Shown piece after piece: positions 1,645 through 63,210 of a DNA stretch of 64,000 nt. Where the stretch lies: positions 2,790,001-2,854,000 of the forward strand of contig NZ_CP053085.1 of NCBI RefSeq assembly GCF_013004105.1, written 5' to 3'. The notes below the pieces were generated by a model. The model worked only from the letters and a program-made list of their open reading frames with translations, did not search any database and was not told where the DNA came from. Source of the stretch: Gemmatimonas groenlandica. Lineage in GTDB: Bacteria; Gemmatimonadota; Gemmatimonadetes; Gemmatimonadales; Gemmatimonadaceae. A program made the position numbers and the translations under genes. Positions within the stretch are counted from its first letter, which is position 1. Every line of letters starts with the position of its first letter.

Positions 1645-2010
1645 ACCCACAACCCAGAACCCATTACCTCGAGCCCCCAGCTCGTAGCCCACAGCGGCTG
1701 TGAGCTGTTGGCTTGAGGTTTGAGGTACTGGGTGGTGGGTGGTGGGTCACCAGCTCAGAAGACCAGAATTCAAGAACCCACAACCCAGAACCCATTACCT
1801 CGAGCCCCCAGCCCATAGCCCACAGCGCCTGTGAGCTGTTGGCTTGGGGTTTGAGGTACTGGGTGGTGGGTGGTGGGTAACTAGGACAGAAGACCAGAAT
1901 TCAAAAACCCACAACCCAAAACCCACGACCCAAAACCCCCAGCCCATAGCCCACAGCCGCTGTGAGCTGTTGGCTTGGGGTTTGAGGTACTGGGTGGTGG
2001 GTTTTGGGTT
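1645..2010. repeat. Three tandem 131-bp palindromic units (ACCCA / TGGGT family)
   Basis: Units start at about 1645, 1776 and 1907. Each has a left arm of ACCCANNACCCAGAACCC-type words, a centre around GCCCACAGC...GCTGTGAGC, and a right arm of GGTACTGGGTGGTGGGT-type words, so each can fold into one long imperfect hairpin. Spacers share CAGAAGACCAGAATTCAA. It fills the gap between the DnaB-like gene and yebC. The same word family recurs at 21884-22011. ORFs reading through it are low-complexity artefacts. Confidence 0.85.
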
Positions 2011-4000: not shown

Positions 4001-4027
4001 GGCGTGGTCGGTGCGCGACGGCGGACA

Positions 4028-4121
4028 CTCACGTGAGTATGGAGTTGTGAGTGAAAGTTTGAAGTTCTGAGTGCAAACTCACGACTCGAAACTTCGACTC
4101 ACAACTTCAAACTCACGTGAG
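4028..4121. repeat. Long hairpin of GTGAGT/GAAGTTT words between convergent genes
   Basis: A left arm (4028-4072) and right arm (4077-4121) pair almost throughout; the outer end is CTCACGTGAG on both sides. It lies between ruvA (+) and the M28 peptidase (-), where a bidirectional terminator would be expected, but there is no T tract and the stem is far longer than a normal terminator. A relative of the same word family is at 47410-47493. Confidence 0.8.
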
Positions 4122-4131
4122 TGCCAGTGGC

Positions 4132-21883: not shown

Positions 21884-22011
21884 ACCCATTACCCATTACC
21901 CAGAACCCATCACCCCAAGCCAACAGCCCACAGCCTGTTGCGCTTTCCGTTGGGCTGTGGGCTGTGGGCTGTTGGCTTGGGGCTGTGGGTCTTGGGTACT
22001 GGGTAATGGGT
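21884..22011. repeat. Long hairpin of ACCCA/TGGGT words between lgt and feoA
   Basis: The left arm (21884-21934; ACCCATTACCC..., then CCAAGCCAACAGCCCACAGCC) pairs with the right arm (21952-22011; GGGCTGTGGGCTGTTGGCTTGGGG..., then TACTGGGTAATGGGT). It is the same word family as the 131-bp units at 1645-2010. A T-run (GTTTTTTAC) lies just before the left arm, not after the stem, so it is not a standard plus-strand terminator. Confidence 0.85.
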
Positions 22012-27267: not shown

Positions 27268-27693
27268 ATGCATGTCTCCTTTGCGCTCTTTGCCGACGCG
27301 GCGAATATCTCCCAGGAAGGAAAGCTGAACATCCTGGGCGTGTTCGATGCCGTCCATGTGGGTCAGCTCCCGGCCCTGCACCCCCGCGCCACCTTCGTGG
27401 TCCGCATCAAGGCCCTCCCCAGCGATGCCGGCGATCACGCCATGACGCTGCGCTGGGTCAACCCGCGCGGCGCTGAGCTGTGGGTGTCGAACGCCGAACT
27501 CTCCATCGCGCCGCCACCGCCAGGTACCACCGAGCTCGACATGCCCGTGATCGTGCAGCTCGATCTGCCGCTCGACCTCACCGGCGACTACCGCATGATC
27601 GTGGAACTGCGCGACGAAAAGCGCGGCGAAGCGCTACTGCACGTGAAAGGACAACCGGTGGTTCCGGGAGCGACGGCAGGAATGGTGTCTTGA
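27268..27693 (+). CDS. DUF6941-like small conserved protein
   Basis: 141 residues, soluble, beta-rich. The opening HVSFALFADAANISQEGKLNILGVFD, the central PRATFVVRIKALPSDAGDH and the end YRMIVELRDEKRGEALLHVKGQP match a family of small conserved bacterial proteins of unknown function. The ATG at 27268 is favoured because family similarity starts right there. It is followed by the GCGCTAAGA hairpin with the IS256 element. Confidence 0.7.
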   Translation: MHVSFALFADAANISQEGKLNILGVFDAVHVGQLPALHPRATFVVRIKALPSDAGDHAMTLRWVNPRGAELWVSNAELSIAPPPPGTTELDMPVIVQLDLPLDLTGDYRMIVELRDEKRGEALLHVKGQPVVPGATAGMVS

Positions 27694-27793
27694 ACTGAGT
27701 AGGGGCGCTAAGAGTTAACGGCGCTAAGAATTAGGGGCGCTAAGGTGAGGAGCGCTAAGAATAAACAGCGACACCACCAACTGCGCGGTTCTG

Positions 27794-29139
27794 GGACCTG
27801 TCAGGAATTCTGTGTATGAGTCGTGAGCATCGGGTCACGACGTCGCCACGAGTCGGTCGCCGAAGAGGAGCTTGAGATGTGGGAAGGCCGCGCGCCAGTA
27901 CTTGTCGGGCTTGGCCTTCCACTTCTTGCCGATGTTGCGCAGCGCGAGATAGAGCAGCTTGCCGGCCGCTTCATCACTCGGGAAGTGGCCGCGGGTCTTG
28001 ATCACTTTGCGAATCTGCATGTTCAGGCTCTCGATCGCATTCGTGGTGTAGAGCACGCGGCGGATTTCCAGTGGGTAGGCGAGGGCCGGCGCGATGCGCT
28101 CCCAGTGCCGCTCCCAGATGGCGACGATCGCTGCGTGGCGCTGCCCAAGCGGACTCTCCGCAAAGCGCTGCAAGGCGAGACGCCCAGCCGCCTCGGTGGG
28201 CGCGTGGTAGATCGTCCGCAGCGCCGCCGCGACGAGCTTCCGCTCGGTCCACGACACGTAGTGGAGGCTTTGACGCACGAGATGCACGATGCACTGATGA
28301 ATCACCGTGTGCGGAAACACCGTCTGCAGCGCGTCTGGGAGCCCCGTCAGGCCATCGATCAGCGCGATCAGGATATCGGCCACGCCACGGCCCTGCAGCT
28401 CGCGAAACACGCGGTGCCAGAAGGCGGCGCCCTCGGTTTGCGCGATCCAAAAGCCGAGCACTTCCTTCGTGCCATCCAGCTGCACGCCGAGCGCGAGATA
28501 CACCGCCTTGTTTTGCACGACGCCTTCGTCGCGGATCTTCACGCGCAGCGCATCGAAGGCGACGGCCACGTACGTCGACTCGAGCGGCCGCTGCTGCCAC
28601 GTCTCGACTTCGGCCAGCACCTCGCTCGTGATCGTGCTGATCAAGTCGGGCGAGACCGGGATCTGATAGCGCTCCTCGAGAAACGCCTGGAGCTCGCGCG
28701 TGCTCAAGCCGCGCGCGTACAGCATCAGCACCGTCTCGTCGAAGCCCGGCAAGCGGCGGGCGCCCTTGGGCACAAACTGGGGCGCAAAACTGCCGTCGCG
28801 GTCCCGCGGGATGTCGAGCGCAATCGACCCGCTCTCGGTCAGCAACGACTTCGGGGTAAAGCCATTGCGGGCATTGCCATCCGGCCCGCGCTCCCCGCCC
28901 TCGGGATAGCCCAAGTGATGCGTGAGCTCAGCCTTGAGCACCCGCTCCGCCATCGCCTTCTGCAACTGCCGCCAGACCAGCTGGAAGTCGGCGGAGGTCT
29001 GCACCCCCGCCACCAACTGGTCGAGAATCTCGGGCGTCAGCCCTGCGGGCAGCGGCTCCGCCGCCGCCCGTTTCCGTCGAGCCATAACCACCTCCGTCCT
29101 ACAAGGTTATGACTCATACACAGAATTTCCGACAGGCCC
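27794..29139 (-). mobile_element. Intact IS256-family insertion sequence (1346 bp)
   Basis: Terminal inverted repeats at 27794-27822 and 29111-29139 match at 26 of 29 positions. Perfect 8-bp direct repeats CGGTTCTG flank the element at 27786-27793 and 29140-29147, the target duplication size usual for IS256. It contains one complete transposase gene. Near-identical ends, exact duplication and an intact gene point to a recent insertion. Confidence 0.95.
27835..29085 (-). CDS. IS256-family (mutator-type) transposase
   Basis: 416 residues from the ATG at 29085. A GGAGG ribosome-binding site sits 5-6 bp before it, and the in-frame GTG at 29091 overlaps that site. DDE catalytic residues in the family context: Asp in VAVAFDALRVKIRD, Asp in LIALIDGLTGLPDA, Glu in LYTTNAIESLNMQIRK. 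Also typical are the N-terminal LGYPEGGERGPDGNARNG and the CIVHLVRQSLHYVSW segment. No frameshift or truncation, so it is probably active. Confidence 0.97.
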   Translation of the reverse strand: MARRKRAAAEPLPAGLTPEILDQLVAGVQTSADFQLVWRQLQKAMAERVLKAELTHHLGYPEGGERGPDGNARNGFTPKSLLTESGSIALDIPRDRDGSFAPQFVPKGARRLPGFDETVLMLYARGLSTRELQAFLEERYQIPVSPDLISTITSEVLAEVETWQQRPLESTYVAVAFDALRVKIRDEGVVQNKAVYLALGVQLDGTKEVLGFWIAQTEGAAFWHRVFRELQGRGVADILIALIDGLTGLPDALQTVFPHTVIHQCIVHLVRQSLHYVSWTERKLVAAALRTIYHAPTEAAGRLALQRFAESPLGQRHAAIVAIWERHWERIAPALAYPLEIRRVLYTTNAIESLNMQIRKVIKTRGHFPSDEAAGKLLYLALRNIGKKWKAKPDKYWRAAFPHLKLLFGDRLVATS

Positions 29140-29233
29140 CGGTTCTGAGTACTGAGTCGCAGTTTATTCCTAGCGCCTTTTACTTTAGCGCCCTTTACTC
29201 TTGGCGCAGTTTATTCTTGGCGCCGTTCGCAGT

Positions 29234-29992
29234 TCACAACGCTCGCCGTACGCCCATGCCTTGTTCCTTCAGCCTTGCCGTGAGTTCGCCCTCCGCGTAG
29301 ATCCCTCCGCGTGCGAGCGAGCTGTGGATCATGCCGCCGTTGCCCGTGCCGATGCCGACGTGCGTGATGCGCTTGTCGTCGCGGTCGGAGAAGAACAGCA
29401 GGTCTCCCGGCGCATGCGCTGCGGTCACGTCGTCGCTCACGAGGACTGTGTCCTCCGCCTGCTGCCATGCATCGCGCCGGAGTGGCACTCCGTGCAGGGC
29501 GAAGATCCGCTGCACGAAGCCGGAGCAGTCCACACCCCACGGCGTGACGCCTCCCCACAGGTAGCTGGCACCGGTGAAGAGCGTGAGCGCACTGCGCACG
29601 ATGGCGTCGCGGTCACGCGGAAACTGTGTGGCGCGGGTTGCTGGGTCGATCGCCATGCCTTCGGCCACCTCGTGTCCCGGCGCCACGCGGGCACCGAGCG
29701 GCAGGGCGCGGCGCTGTCCCTCGGCGTCGAGCGTCACGCAGCCCAGCGAGATGCGCCACGTGGCTTCGGTGCCCGTGAACGGCATCAGATAGCCGACGTG
29801 GGTCCAGCCTTCATAGTCATCGGCGCCGCGCACGTGCAGCCAGTCGCCGCGGCCATCCACCAATTGCAGCACTTCACCGGCCAGCAACTGCGAGGTGAGG
29901 GACGCGGAAATCCGCGCATCGCCGAGGAGTGGAGCGATGGCCGAGCGAACGGTGAATCGGTCGGCAGTGGAAAGCGTCAGTGCAGTGCCCAA
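29234..29992 (-). CDS. NlpC/P60-family (C40) peptidase with SH3-like domain
   Basis: 252 residues. One or two bacterial SH3-like modules (about 25-115, with QLLAGEVLQLVDGRGDWLHVR and YEGWTHVGYL) precede a C40 domain with catalytic Cys156 in WGVDCSGFVQ and His211 in ITHVGIGTGNG. Such enzymes cleave D-Glu-diaminopimelate links in peptidoglycan peptides. No signal peptide is evident, so a cytoplasmic role in cell-wall peptide recycling is likely, which fits its place 33 bp after a P1 peptidase. Confidence 0.88.
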   Translation of the reverse strand: MGTALTLSTADRFTVRSAIAPLLGDARISASLTSQLLAGEVLQLVDGRGDWLHVRGADDYEGWTHVGYLMPFTGTEATWRISLGCVTLDAEGQRRALPLGARVAPGHEVAEGMAIDPATRATQFPRDRDAIVRSALTLFTGASYLWGGVTPWGVDCSGFVQRIFALHGVPLRRDAWQQAEDTVLVSDDVTAAHAPGDLLFFSDRDDKRITHVGIGTGNGGMIHSSLARGGIYAEGELTARLKEQGMGVRRAL

Positions 29993-41791: not shown

Positions 41792-43414
41792 ATGTCATCG
41801 ATTCGCCCGTCACGTTCGTTCTGCTCGCGGCTCTCGCGGCGCGCCATGGTCGGCACGATGGTCTGCACCACACTGGCCAGCACGCTGGCCGGCTGCCGCA
41901 CCGGCGAGGCGACCCCCGACCGTCACGCGCTCATCGACTCACGCGATTGGTATGATCCGCGTTCGCTCGATCCCGCCAAAGCCACCGACGTGCCCAGCGG
42001 CCGTGCCGTGGCGTACCTCTTCGACGGCCTCACCAAATTCACCCCCGCCGGTCAGGTGCAGCCATCGATCGCGCGGTCGTGGGACGTCTCGCCAGACGGG
42101 CTGCAGTACACCTTCCACCTGCGCACCGACGTCCGCTTTCACGACGGCGCGCCGTTGCTCGCACGCCACGTCGCACAGTCGTTCCGCCGCGTGCTCGACC
42201 CAGCCACCAAAGGCGGCACGCTGTGGCCGCTCTACCCGATCAAGGGCGCCCGCGCCTTCGCCGATGGCAAGTCCGATGGCACGGGCACCGCACTCGGCAT
42301 CGAGACGCCCAACGACACGACGGTCGTGATCACACTCGACGAACCGTTCGCGATCTTCCCGAAGCTGCTCGCCATGCCCGTGGCGTCGATCCTGCCCGAC
42401 TCCGTCGGCACCGACTTCAGCGAGCACCCGATCGGCACCGGTCCGTGGAAGCTCGTGGAGTGGAAGCACGACGACTACCTCAAGTTCGCCCGCAACGCCA
42501 CGTACTTCGGCGGTGCCCCATCCATCGACACCTTGATCGCGCGCATCATCCCCGAGCCCTCCACGGCCGTCGCGGAGTTCGAAGCCGGCACGGTCGACAT
42601 TCTCTATGTGCCGGAAGACCAGACGCGTGACTGGGAAGAGACCGACACCAAGAAGGCTACGCTCGTGAGCGCACCCGCGCTGCGCTTGTGGTACATGGGC
42701 GTGAACGTCACCCGCGGCCCGCTGAAAGACGTGCGCGTACGACAGGCGATCGCCCATGCCATCGACGTCCCCACCCTCCTCGCGCAGCTGCTCGCCGGCC
42801 GCGGCACCATCGCCGCCGGCGTGATCCCGCCCACGCTCGAAGGCTTCGACAAGGCGCGGCAGCCGTACGCGTACGACACCCTCGCGGCGCGCAAACTGCT
42901 CGCCGACGCCGGCTACGCCAAAGGCATCGACCTCGAATTGTGGAGCTCACAAACCGCGCCGATGCCGCGCCTCGCGCAAGCGATTCAGGCCTACCTCGCC
43001 ACGGTGGGCGTTCGCATCAAGCTCGTGCAACGCGACGCCAGCTCCATGCGCGCCGCCGCCCGCGCCGGACAGACAGACCTGGTCGTGAAAGACTGGTACG
43101 CCGATTACCCCGACGCCGAAAACTTCCTCTATCCGCTGCTGCACACCGCGAACCGCGGCGCCGGCGGCAACGTGTCGTTCTTCAGCGACGCTACGTTTGA
43201 TCGATTGGTCGACGCGTCACGGCGCGAGAGCGACGCGGCCAAGCGCGCGGTGTTGTATGCGGCGGCGGACTCGGTAGGGTACGCGCAAGTCGGCATGGTC
43301 CCGCTGTTTTTCTACAACGAGGTGTACGCGGTACAACCTTGGGTGAAAGGGTTTGAAGTACCGGTGATTTTCAATGGGCAACGATGGGAAAAGGTTACGA
43401 TAGGGAAGGACTAA
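41792..43414 (+). CDS. Oligopeptide-binding lipoprotein (SBP family 5)
   Basis: 540 residues from the ATG at 41792. A lipoprotein signal peptide ends in the lipobox LAGC (Cys35). The mature part is a periplasmic binding protein of the DppA/OppA class: DPRSLDPAKATDVPSGRAV, LFDGLTKF, WDVSPDGLQYTFHLRTDVRFHDG, GTGPWKLVEW and LPLLHTANRGAGGNVSFF. It delivers peptides or other solutes to an ABC importer. A matching DppB-type permease is at 45246, separated by an inverted-repeat element and a minus-strand GGDEF gene. Confidence 0.92.
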   Translation: MSSIRPSRSFCSRLSRRAMVGTMVCTTLASTLAGCRTGEATPDRHALIDSRDWYDPRSLDPAKATDVPSGRAVAYLFDGLTKFTPAGQVQPSIARSWDVSPDGLQYTFHLRTDVRFHDGAPLLARHVAQSFRRVLDPATKGGTLWPLYPIKGARAFADGKSDGTGTALGIETPNDTTVVITLDEPFAIFPKLLAMPVASILPDSVGTDFSEHPIGTGPWKLVEWKHDDYLKFARNATYFGGAPSIDTLIARIIPEPSTAVAEFEAGTVDILYVPEDQTRDWEETDTKKATLVSAPALRLWYMGVNVTRGPLKDVRVRQAIAHAIDVPTLLAQLLAGRGTIAAGVIPPTLEGFDKARQPYAYDTLAARKLLADAGYAKGIDLELWSSQTAPMPRLAQAIQAYLATVGVRIKLVQRDASSMRAAARAGQTDLVVKDWYADYPDAENFLYPLLHTANRGAGGNVSFFSDATFDRLVDASRRESDAAKRAVLYAAADSVGYAQVGMVPLFFYNEVYAVQPWVKGFEVPVIFNGQRWEKVTIGKD

Positions 43415-44038
43415 CATCGCTAAGAGTCAACTGCGCTAAAAGTCAGAAGCGCTAAGAGTCAACAGCGCTAAGAATTAAGGGCGAAGCTACGAACGGCGTT
43501 GGGATGTGCGTGGTCGCGGGCTTTTGGTGACGGTGGTTGGGCATGGGCGCACTACCGTTCGGCATGCCCAACCACTTCGACCTCCGTGTGTACGACGCGG
43601 CGTGCCAACTCAGCACCGTCGTGATCGACTCCCTCGACCATTGCGAGTGCAACCGCGTGCCCGGGTTGCGGGCGCAGCTCATCAGCTCAGTCGGGTCGAT
43701 CGCCGCGAATACGTCAGAAGGCGCCGGTCGTGGAACGACCGCGCAGTTCCTCAATCAGTTGCGTATCGCCTTGGGTTCTGCCAACGAAACCCGCACGCAT
43801 CTCATGCGAGCACGCAATGAGGCGAGACTGCCGACCAAGCCGTACTTCCTGTGCGATTCGAAAGCACTCGTGACCGCAAGAATGCTGGCGTCCCTCATCC
43901 GCCGAATCGAGGAGGACGAAGCGAGAAAGAAGAACGAGCGCAGTTAGCAGTTCACGCCGTTGATTCTTAGCGCTGTTGATTCTTAGCGCCGTTCACTTTT
44001 AGCGCAGTTAATTCTTAGCGCTGTTAGCAGTTCACTCC
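43413..44038. repeat. GCGCTAAGA inverted-repeat element carrying a four-helix-bundle gene
   Basis: The left arm (about 43413-43482) holds four GCGCTAARAG-type words. The right arm (about 43949-44038) is the inverted copy with words such as ATTCTTAGCGCTG, repeated four to five times. The gene at 43564-43947 fills the loop. The design is that of 23S rRNA intervening sequences, where an S23 gene sits in a base-paired stem, but here it is intergenic. Confidence 0.8.
43564..43947 (+). CDS. Four-helix-bundle (S23/IVP family) protein
   Basis: 127 residues from the ATG at 43564 (other in-frame starts lie upstream at 43543 and 43537). Family landmarks: NHFDLRVYDAACQLSTVVID (first helix), the loop VPGLRAQLISSVGSIAANTSEGAGRGTTAQFLNQLRIALGSANET and a C-terminal RMLASLIRRIEEDE. 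S23 proteins are encoded in rRNA intervening sequences, and the fold is shared with Avd of diversity-generating retroelements; both bind nucleic acid. This copy is between inverted repeats and away from any rRNA or reverse transcriptase gene. Biochemical function unknown. Confidence 0.88.
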   Translation: MPNHFDLRVYDAACQLSTVVIDSLDHCECNRVPGLRAQLISSVGSIAANTSEGAGRGTTAQFLNQLRIALGSANETRTHLMRARNEARLPTKPYFLCDSKALVTARMLASLIRRIEEDEARKKNERS

Positions 44039-49161: not shown

Positions 49162-49278
49162 GCCCATGGCCCATGGCCCATGGCCCACGGCCCAAAGCCT
49201 GTTCACGGGGCTACGTTTGAGCTATGGGCTTTGAGCTATGGGCTTTGTGCCATGGGCCGTGGGCCATGAGCCGTGGGC
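49162..49278. repeat. GGCCCAT-word hairpin directly after aroB
   Basis: The left arm 49162-49199 (GCCCATGGCCCATGGCCC...AAAGCC) pairs with the right arm 49228-49278 (GGCTTTGAGCTATGGGC...GTGGGC). It starts right at the aroB stop. The stem is imperfect but long; it could terminate aroB, although no T-run follows. Confidence 0.8.
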
Positions 49279-56960: not shown

Positions 56961-57139
56961 TCAGAACTGAGTACTGAAGTTTGCTGAATTCAGACCACTA
57001 TACACGGTCTGATGCCTGGGCTCTGAACACTGGCCACTGGGCCGATGGTAAAGCGCCAGTGTTCAGTGGTCAGAATTCTGGCGTCAGACTTTTTATAGTG
57101 TTCAGAGACGAGCAAACTTCAGTCCACAGTGTCGAGCGT
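56961..57139. repeat. Long hairpin related to the TonB-flanking repeats
   Basis: The left arm (about 56961-57037) and right arm (about 57051-57139) pair; ACTGAAGTTTGCT, TCTGAACACTGG and GTCTGA/TCAGAC words are visible on both sides. The right arm contains GGTCAGAATTCTGGCGTCAGACT and TATAGTGTTC, the words that open the elements at 60391 and 62944. It lies between ygfZ and the terminator at 57196. Confidence 0.82.
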
Positions 57140-60390: not shown

Positions 60391-60664
60391 GCGCTGAACG
60401 GCCCAGTACTGAGTGGTCTGAATTCTGGCGTCAGACTGGGTATAGTGTTCGGAATTCAGCAACGACAGTCCACAGTGCCGAGCGGGTTTCATGGATCTGA
60501 CGATTCACGAGGCCTTTGCTCGGCACTTGGCGTTGGGGAATCCCTGTCCGTCCAGCGGCCCCACACGCAGTAAGGAAATTCTCGAAACTGAGCACTGTAG
60601 CTGCTGAATTCTGACCACTATAAGCAGTCTGACGCCCCAGTTCTCAGTACTGAGTACTGGGCTG
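60391..60664. repeat. ~270-bp inverted-repeat element, copy upstream of TonB receptor
   Basis: The left arm (about 60391-60484) and the right arm (about 60578-60664) are imperfect inverted copies made of CAGTACTGAG, GAATTCTGGCGTCAGAC, TATAGTG and AATTCAGC words. The ~90-bp centre also contains a small inverted repeat (TGCCGAG/CTCGGCA). It fills most of the 366-bp gap between the AAA+ and TonB receptor genes. A near copy lies after the receptor at 62944. Confidence 0.9.
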
Positions 60665-60746
60665 TTTGTTAATCCCACGTTAAGCCCAACACGTCGACCT
60701 TCCCCTGCGTAGTCCGACACCCGCCCATCCCCTACGCACTCCCCTG

Positions 60747-62943: not shown

Positions 62944-63210
62944 GCGCTGAACAGCCCAGTACTGAGTTGTCTGAATTCTGGCGTCAGACTGGGTATAGTG
63001 TTCGGAATTCAGCAACGACAGTCCACAGTGCCGAGCGGGTTTCCTGGATCTGACGATTCACGAGGTCTCCGCTCGGCACTCGCGCAGGGATATCAACACA
63101 TCCCCGCGGTCGCACACGCAGTAAGGAAATTCTCGCAACTGAGCACTGTAGCTGCTCGACTCTGACCACTATACCCAGTCTGACGCCAGAGTTCAGAACA
63201 CAGAGTACTG
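62944..63210. repeat. ~270-bp inverted-repeat element, copy downstream of TonB receptor
   Basis: Direct-orientation copy of the element at 60391, 2553 bp further on. The first ~110 bp differ at only a few positions. The centre is more diverged, with GTAAGGAAATTCTCG as the next shared block, and the right arm again mirrors the left. It lies between the receptor (+) and the dockerin gene (-). Confidence 0.9.

Follow-up and report, generated by a model that had tools for sequence, protein, structure and literature searches.

An S23/IVP gene within an inverted array of tandem words in Gemmatimonas groenlandica and the framing of S23 genes by such arrays in other genomes

The window element and the closest described systems

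S23/IVP proteins have solved structures (2GSC, 2RLD) and, to our knowledge, no known function; likewise we know of no established origin for the heptameric intergenic repeats. REP/RAYT families have a partner-plus-dependent structure, in which short copies depend on a protein partner. S23 ORFs have been described within intervening sequences (IVSs) of the 23S rRNA of Coxiella, Leptospira and Brucella. According to PMC4990558, the S23 start of the Coxiella IVS is preceded by two or three GACAGAT heptamers, its S23 ORF is decaying and probably not expressed, and the structure of a Xanthomonas S23 protein was reported as a pentameric ring. REPINs are described in PMC3116915. For Xanthomonas, Rehm et al. 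(PMC4692102) give 70–75 convergent inverted GGGAATC pairs per genome. Searching this paper and a paper on Beggiatoaceae repeats (PMC4679880) we found no mention of an S23 gene, and our search of the open-access literature found no report of a link between S23 and repeats.

The window, i.e. the whole 64-kb stretch of DNA that was analysed, holds what we term an S23 hairpin element. In it an inverted tandem-word array, located in the gap between two gene ends, encloses an S23 gene in its loop (Table 1). The first-pass annotation had described the gene as bracketed by inverted repeats of one word, and this arrangement is real. The inverted arms (43402–43483 and 43955–44036) are 82 nt long each, 83% complementary and 471 nt apart, and both are tandem arrays of one 16-nt unit. 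The word GCGCTAAGA occurs 8 times in the window versus 0.38 times expected. The ORF in the loop matches the profiles TIGR02436 (E 1.5e-18, 67 bits, cut-off 24) and PF05635 (E 2.5e-17, 63.4 bits, cut-off 33.8), and its predicted fold (pLDDT 95.8) is a four-helix bundle matching the S23 structures 2RLD and 2GSC. With profile scores above the curated cut-offs and this fold, the protein belongs to the S23/IVP family. Compared with its orthologues at the same site it shows a dN/dS of 0.14–0.26.

Table 1. Positions of the window element and of S23-less hairpins of the window
Feature	Position	Strand	Description
Left arm	43417..43483	+	four 16-nt units, starts 43417, 43433, 43449, 43465; GCGCTAAGAxTxAACx pointing inward
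13-nt perfect inverted repeat around S23 start codon	43533..43575	+	halves 43533–43545 / 43563–43575
S23/IVP four-helix-bundle gene in loop	43564..43947	+	TIGR02436, PF05635; ATG 43564, stop 43945–43947
Right arm	43955..44036	-	left-arm word, inverted; runs to stop codon of GGDEF gene
S23-less hairpin	27704..29224		window word family; arms 27704–27772 / 29156–29224, units 16-16-15-16
S23-less hairpin	1645..2009		arms resemble L024 S23 element (902.2–902.8 kb)
S23-less palindrome	4026..4123		resembles palindrome beside L023 S23 gene (1977.9 kb)
S23-less hairpin	21884..22011		arms resemble L024 S23 element
S23-less hairpin	56966..57130		arms resemble L026 S23 element (2497.0–2497.7 kb)
S23-less hairpin	60397..60666		arms resemble L026 S23 element
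S23-less hairpin	62957..63210		arms resemble L026 S23 element

On the left, the tandem units begin 2 nt beyond the stop codon of an SBP gene (43412–43414). On the right, the array abuts the stop codon of a GGDEF gene, which is encoded on the opposite strand and ends at 44032. The element had been placed between the SBP gene and a permease gene, which is right; in the window the GGDEF gene also lies between the two. For the perfect inverted repeat around the S23 start codon a function in translational control is possible. By eye, its pairing may be kept by related sequences at the window site in two relatives (G015, G024).

The element resembles the 23S rRNA IVSs in that a long inverted-repeat stem carries an S23 ORF in its loop. 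It differs from them in its location between protein genes (SBP and GGDEF), outside any 23S rRNA gene and with no Rfam match anywhere in the window, in its arms, which are tandem word arrays, and in its S23-less relatives throughout the genome. Furthermore, the S23 ORF of the Coxiella IVS is described as decaying in PMC4990558, whereas the S23 gene of the window is under purifying selection. With the heptameric repeats of Xanthomonas and Nostoc (GGGAATC, GGGGA(C/T)T) and the TAACTGA repeats of Beggiatoaceae and others the element shares short tandem words in intergenic DNA. With REP/REPIN sequences and RAYT it shares a protein-coding copy flanked by inverted repeats and many short palindromic copies at gene ends. 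However, the protein here is S23, which has no enzymatic fold, the arms are arrays of many units, and the words differ between S23 copies.

A RAYT (Y1) transposase could be moving the hairpins as REP or REPIN sequences, or the reverse transcriptase of a DGR, a retron or a group II intron could be copying them, with S23 as a bystander or an Avd-like accessory. REP/RAYT families likewise consist of a partner and dependent copies, and the S23 fold is common to the Avd proteins of DGRs (8UBE and 4DWL, TM ~0.7), a weaker match than to the S23 structures and one at ~10% sequence identity. Against this stands that neither a Y1 transposase (PF01797) nor a reverse transcriptase (RVT_1, PF00078) gave a match in this complete genome. 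Across 61 genomes RVT_1 was present in 6 and Y1 in 21, with no visible relation to the word families. Barring loss of the enzyme or an enzyme of another Pfam family, a RAYT or reverse transcriptase as the driver is largely refuted in this genome, and we regard this explanation as very improbable.

S23 genes are framed by inverted short-word arrays in bacteria and some archaea

We analysed 99 S23 loci from about 40 genomes of Gemmatimonadales by aligning the left flank of each gene to the reverse complement of its right flank. 88% of the loci scored above the 95th percentile of mis-paired flanks. Flanking inverted repeats were present at 79 of 94 testable S23 genes (84%) versus 1 of 551 control genes (0.2%; Fisher p 1e-84), the controls being ordinary genes sampled from eight genomes in random stretches of 20 kb. 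Most of the 12 loci below the mis-paired threshold represent one old shared site without detectable arms.

A second set of 80 named loci spanned many phyla, with Xanthomonas, Acidobacteria, Bacteroidota, Planctomycetes and ANME-1 archaea among them. Here 71% of the 78 testable S23 loci exceeded the mis-paired-flank control. At a fixed score the fraction was 38/69 for S23 loci (55%) in comparison to 3/109 for neighbouring genes (2.8%; p 2e-16). The association of S23 genes with inverted repeats, looked for across genomes after the first-pass annotation had suggested it, is therefore strong and general: S23 genes in bacteria and some archaea are framed by inverted arrays of short words, and the window element is one case of this rule.

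The periodicity of the flanks peaks at 7 and, smaller, at 8, plus multiples of both; period 7 was found in 17–44% of S23 flanks versus 2% of controls. The words vary by locus (AGTTCTC, GGTGAGT, GGGAATC, GGGATAG and others) and outside the window element are usually 7 or 8 nt long. When read inward, the word is preferentially G-rich on the 5' arm (39 versus 2 and 68 versus 9). In four Xanthomonas species the S23 genes are framed by exactly GGGAATC, which is the heptamer of Rehm et al. (PMC4692102). S23 proteins and intergenic word repeats are thereby tied together across many phyla, in a precise pairing of one S23 protein with one word.

S23-less hairpin families in the complete genome

The complete genome (5.18 Mb) contains five S23 genes. 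Every one is either enclosed by long inverted repeats or adjoined by a long palindrome, with words that differ from gene to gene. All five also have matching dispersed hairpins without an S23 gene, which are few for L024. The structure of S23-bearing and S23-less copies, first suggested as an autonomous/non-autonomous family, hence exists for each S23 gene of the genome. In the window alone six S23-less hairpins match the arms of three other S23 genes (Table 1). Long inverted repeats are strongly clustered locally, with ten in the 64-kb window and none in 160 kb of random samples from the same genome. In addition a CCCATGG-word hairpin at 49162–49278 is closer to the S23 arms of L095 from a sister species (G027) than to those of any S23 gene of its own genome.

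The word of the window element is present in 47 paired GCGCTAA words and in eight complete S23-less hairpins genome-wide, as well as in single or far-apart arms. One of the eight is the hairpin listed first among the S23-less features in Table 1, which had been noticed (27692–29236) as a sister of the window element that holds no such gene. It does belong to the same-word family and is a small-loop, S23-less hairpin; its loop, however, is not empty, as it holds an IS256 copy (27793–29140; transposase E 1e-113) with terminal repeats of 30 nt (27793–27822 and 29111–29140) that are 90% complementary. Five of the eight, at different places, show the unit order 16-16-15-16 in both arms. As this order is shared despite differing loops, the hairpins are copies of one design and not independent growths.

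A second family belongs to the S23 gene at 306 kb, for which we found 16 complete S23-less hairpins of ~125 nt at unrelated places. These hairpins and the S23 element have identical sharp ends, AACTGCCAAC...GTTGGCAGTT. To assess whose arms the S23-less hairpins resemble, 29 such hairpins from several genomes were compared with S23 arms from 40 genomes: 12 matched the arms of their own genome first, versus 0.7 expected, and for several more the own-genome arms ranked second or third after those of a sister species. For the ACTCACG family the S23 gene (L026, G000:C1:2497243-2497563) contains an in-frame TAG and the S23-less hairpins are numerous; possibly the S23 protein has just been lost here.

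Three further loci show unusual arms. In two of them, L011:4254-9425 and L014:5360-7952, ordinary genes are located between arms of the GCGCTAAGA word, which are separated by 5 kb and 2.4 kb, respectively; this represents either captured cargo or two half hairpins. At L018:7751-8048 the left arm of an S23-less hairpin consists of ten units in two homogeneous blocks, which points to single units having recently been amplified in tandem.

Such arrays could also arise passively, growing by replication slippage and strand switching, with loops that tolerate insertions and S23 as one of several cargoes. The IS256 copy in one hairpin loop, the far-apart arms around ordinary genes and the visible amplification of units in L018 are all in line with this. 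However, framing is hundreds of times more frequent for S23 than for other genes, which speaks strongly against a passive origin, and independent growth would not give the 16-16-15-16 order in both arms of five hairpins. Likewise none of 13 hairpins from random samples had a gene-sized loop, the longest among the loops listed being 112 nt. We therefore consider passive growth improbable.

The random samples covered 1.16 Mb. Hairpin density was weakly higher where S23 is present, with 11 hairpins in 680 kb of S23-bearing genomes versus 2 in 480 kb, and is a weak marker of S23 content. In two S23-rich genomes (G033, G037) no S23-less hairpins were found in the 280 kb sampled, so that S23-less families are not universal. 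We also considered whether the two arms of one hairpin are corrected against each other and rejected this, as the identity of a hairpin's own arms (0.80) is not above that between hairpins (0.81; p 0.08). Variation thus follows the family and not the single hairpin.

Persistence of sites, change of words and a proposed role of S23

Many of the relatives are incomplete assemblies, which makes an absence of S23 from them uncertain. At the window site, the S23 gene with GCGCTAA-like arms is intact in this genome (G000) and in G015 and G024; it is internally deleted in G025 and reduced to a remnant in G028. Three relatives carry an S23 gene with other words at this position (G020, G027, G022), and three others carry S23-less hairpins (G006, G009, G019). 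In G021 and G008 the element is absent and the SBP and permease genes are directly adjacent; in the relatives with element-free sites the flanks or SBP genes are ~78–80% identical. The first-pass annotation had named presence of the element in all relatives, with no empty sites, as a result that would refute it; the relatives do include sites without the element, as well as S23-less hairpins.

Most of the hairpin sites that we checked are common to relatives, and it is the words that change. GCGCTAA pairs are confined to this genome and six close relatives. In place of GCGCTAA, G020 and G027 carry GGCGTTAG at site H1 as well as at the window site, two positions that we judged to correspond to those of this genome, and G027 does so also beside H6. 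At H1 the hairpins of G022 and G016 consist of words that the S23 elements of the respective genome carry, and G026 has no hairpin. For the 306-kb family, the words at the same sites are of type A in some relatives and of type B in others, type B being that of the S23 arms of G025. Word similarity within a genome is above chance, modestly (p 0.023). Within a lineage, words thus change in parallel across sites, and the sites persist.

The S23 genes themselves are under purifying selection (dN/dS 0.05–0.33). Those at the same site in different species mostly form one clade, with 20 label changes against a minimum of 17 and a shuffled mean of 51, which points to mostly vertical inheritance at shared sites. 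By eye no target-site duplication was seen at the ends of the 306-kb family, and no recent insertion or insertion polymorphism was found among the relatives compared. An element that jumps freely is not supported: same-site S23 genes mostly belong to one clade, target-site duplications were not seen at the family ends, and the fast change is in words and not in positions. An IS/MITE pair was likewise rejected, since the element contains no transposase and no duplication was seen by eye at the family ends.

The mostly vertical inheritance of S23 sites also agrees with a use by the host. In this reading the hairpins at gene ends serve as bidirectional terminators or as sites for RNase III, and S23 is an ordinary protein that binds RNA and is either controlled by such stems or acts on them. 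Duplication and ectopic gene conversion would then account for the families, and no selfish element would be involved. The location of the hairpins fits: 15 of 24 classified ones are placed between convergent genes, stop-to-stop, mostly within ~20 nt of the stop codons. Several loops contain a terminator-like stem, which is kept at the same site in G000 and G014, and stems of rRNA IVSs are cut by RNase III according to PMC4990558. On the other hand, selection for an RNA stem should leave an excess of G.U over A.C among the arm mismatches, and none was observed (43 versus 46; 225 versus 293). For the S23-sense strand this counts against a selected RNA stem, though not decisively, as transcription may run on both strands. 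Host use also leaves unexplained why, across many phyla, it should be S23 that the words of its own genome frame. Taken together we find it a rather unlikely account.

The explanation we favour, with about even confidence, is that the S23 hairpin element represents a partnership similar to REP/RAYT, with S23 acting on its own arms. The multimeric S23 protein would recognise the array of its own word, most likely in the form of inverted DNA. It would thereby help to maintain, correct or copy the hairpins that bear this word, in the way in which RAYT proteins serve REP sequences. The S23-less hairpins would be dependent derivatives. Host recombination or replication enzymes would carry out the maintenance or correction with the help of S23; the making of new hairpin copies must rely on enzymes of the host, given that S23 shows no resemblance to any nuclease or transposase. 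Such elements may be selfish and may be mobile at present. Should S23 act on its words, this would be a system that spreads or corrects repeats without needing a transposase; otherwise the pairing would still be a pointer to the binding target of S23. More tentatively, S23 proteins of bacteria and archaea could in general be dedicated partners of widespread mobile-like hairpin families without transposase or reverse transcriptase. Each would recognise its own inverted tandem word and drive its parallel rewriting genome-wide, and the Xanthomonas heptamers would be one such family.

Against the favoured explanation stand the mostly vertical inheritance of S23 at shared sites, the family ends at which no duplication was seen, the negative result for recent insertion polymorphism, the weak difference in hairpin density and the samples of G033 and G037 in which S23-less hairpins were not found. 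In G014 and G019, both incomplete assemblies, no S23 gene was detected, yet arrays or a hairpin are present, which likewise speaks against it. For three pairs of loci (L067/L078, L068/L091, L045/L064) the S23 gene is flipped between species with respect to conserved flanks, as expected for recombination between inverted arms.
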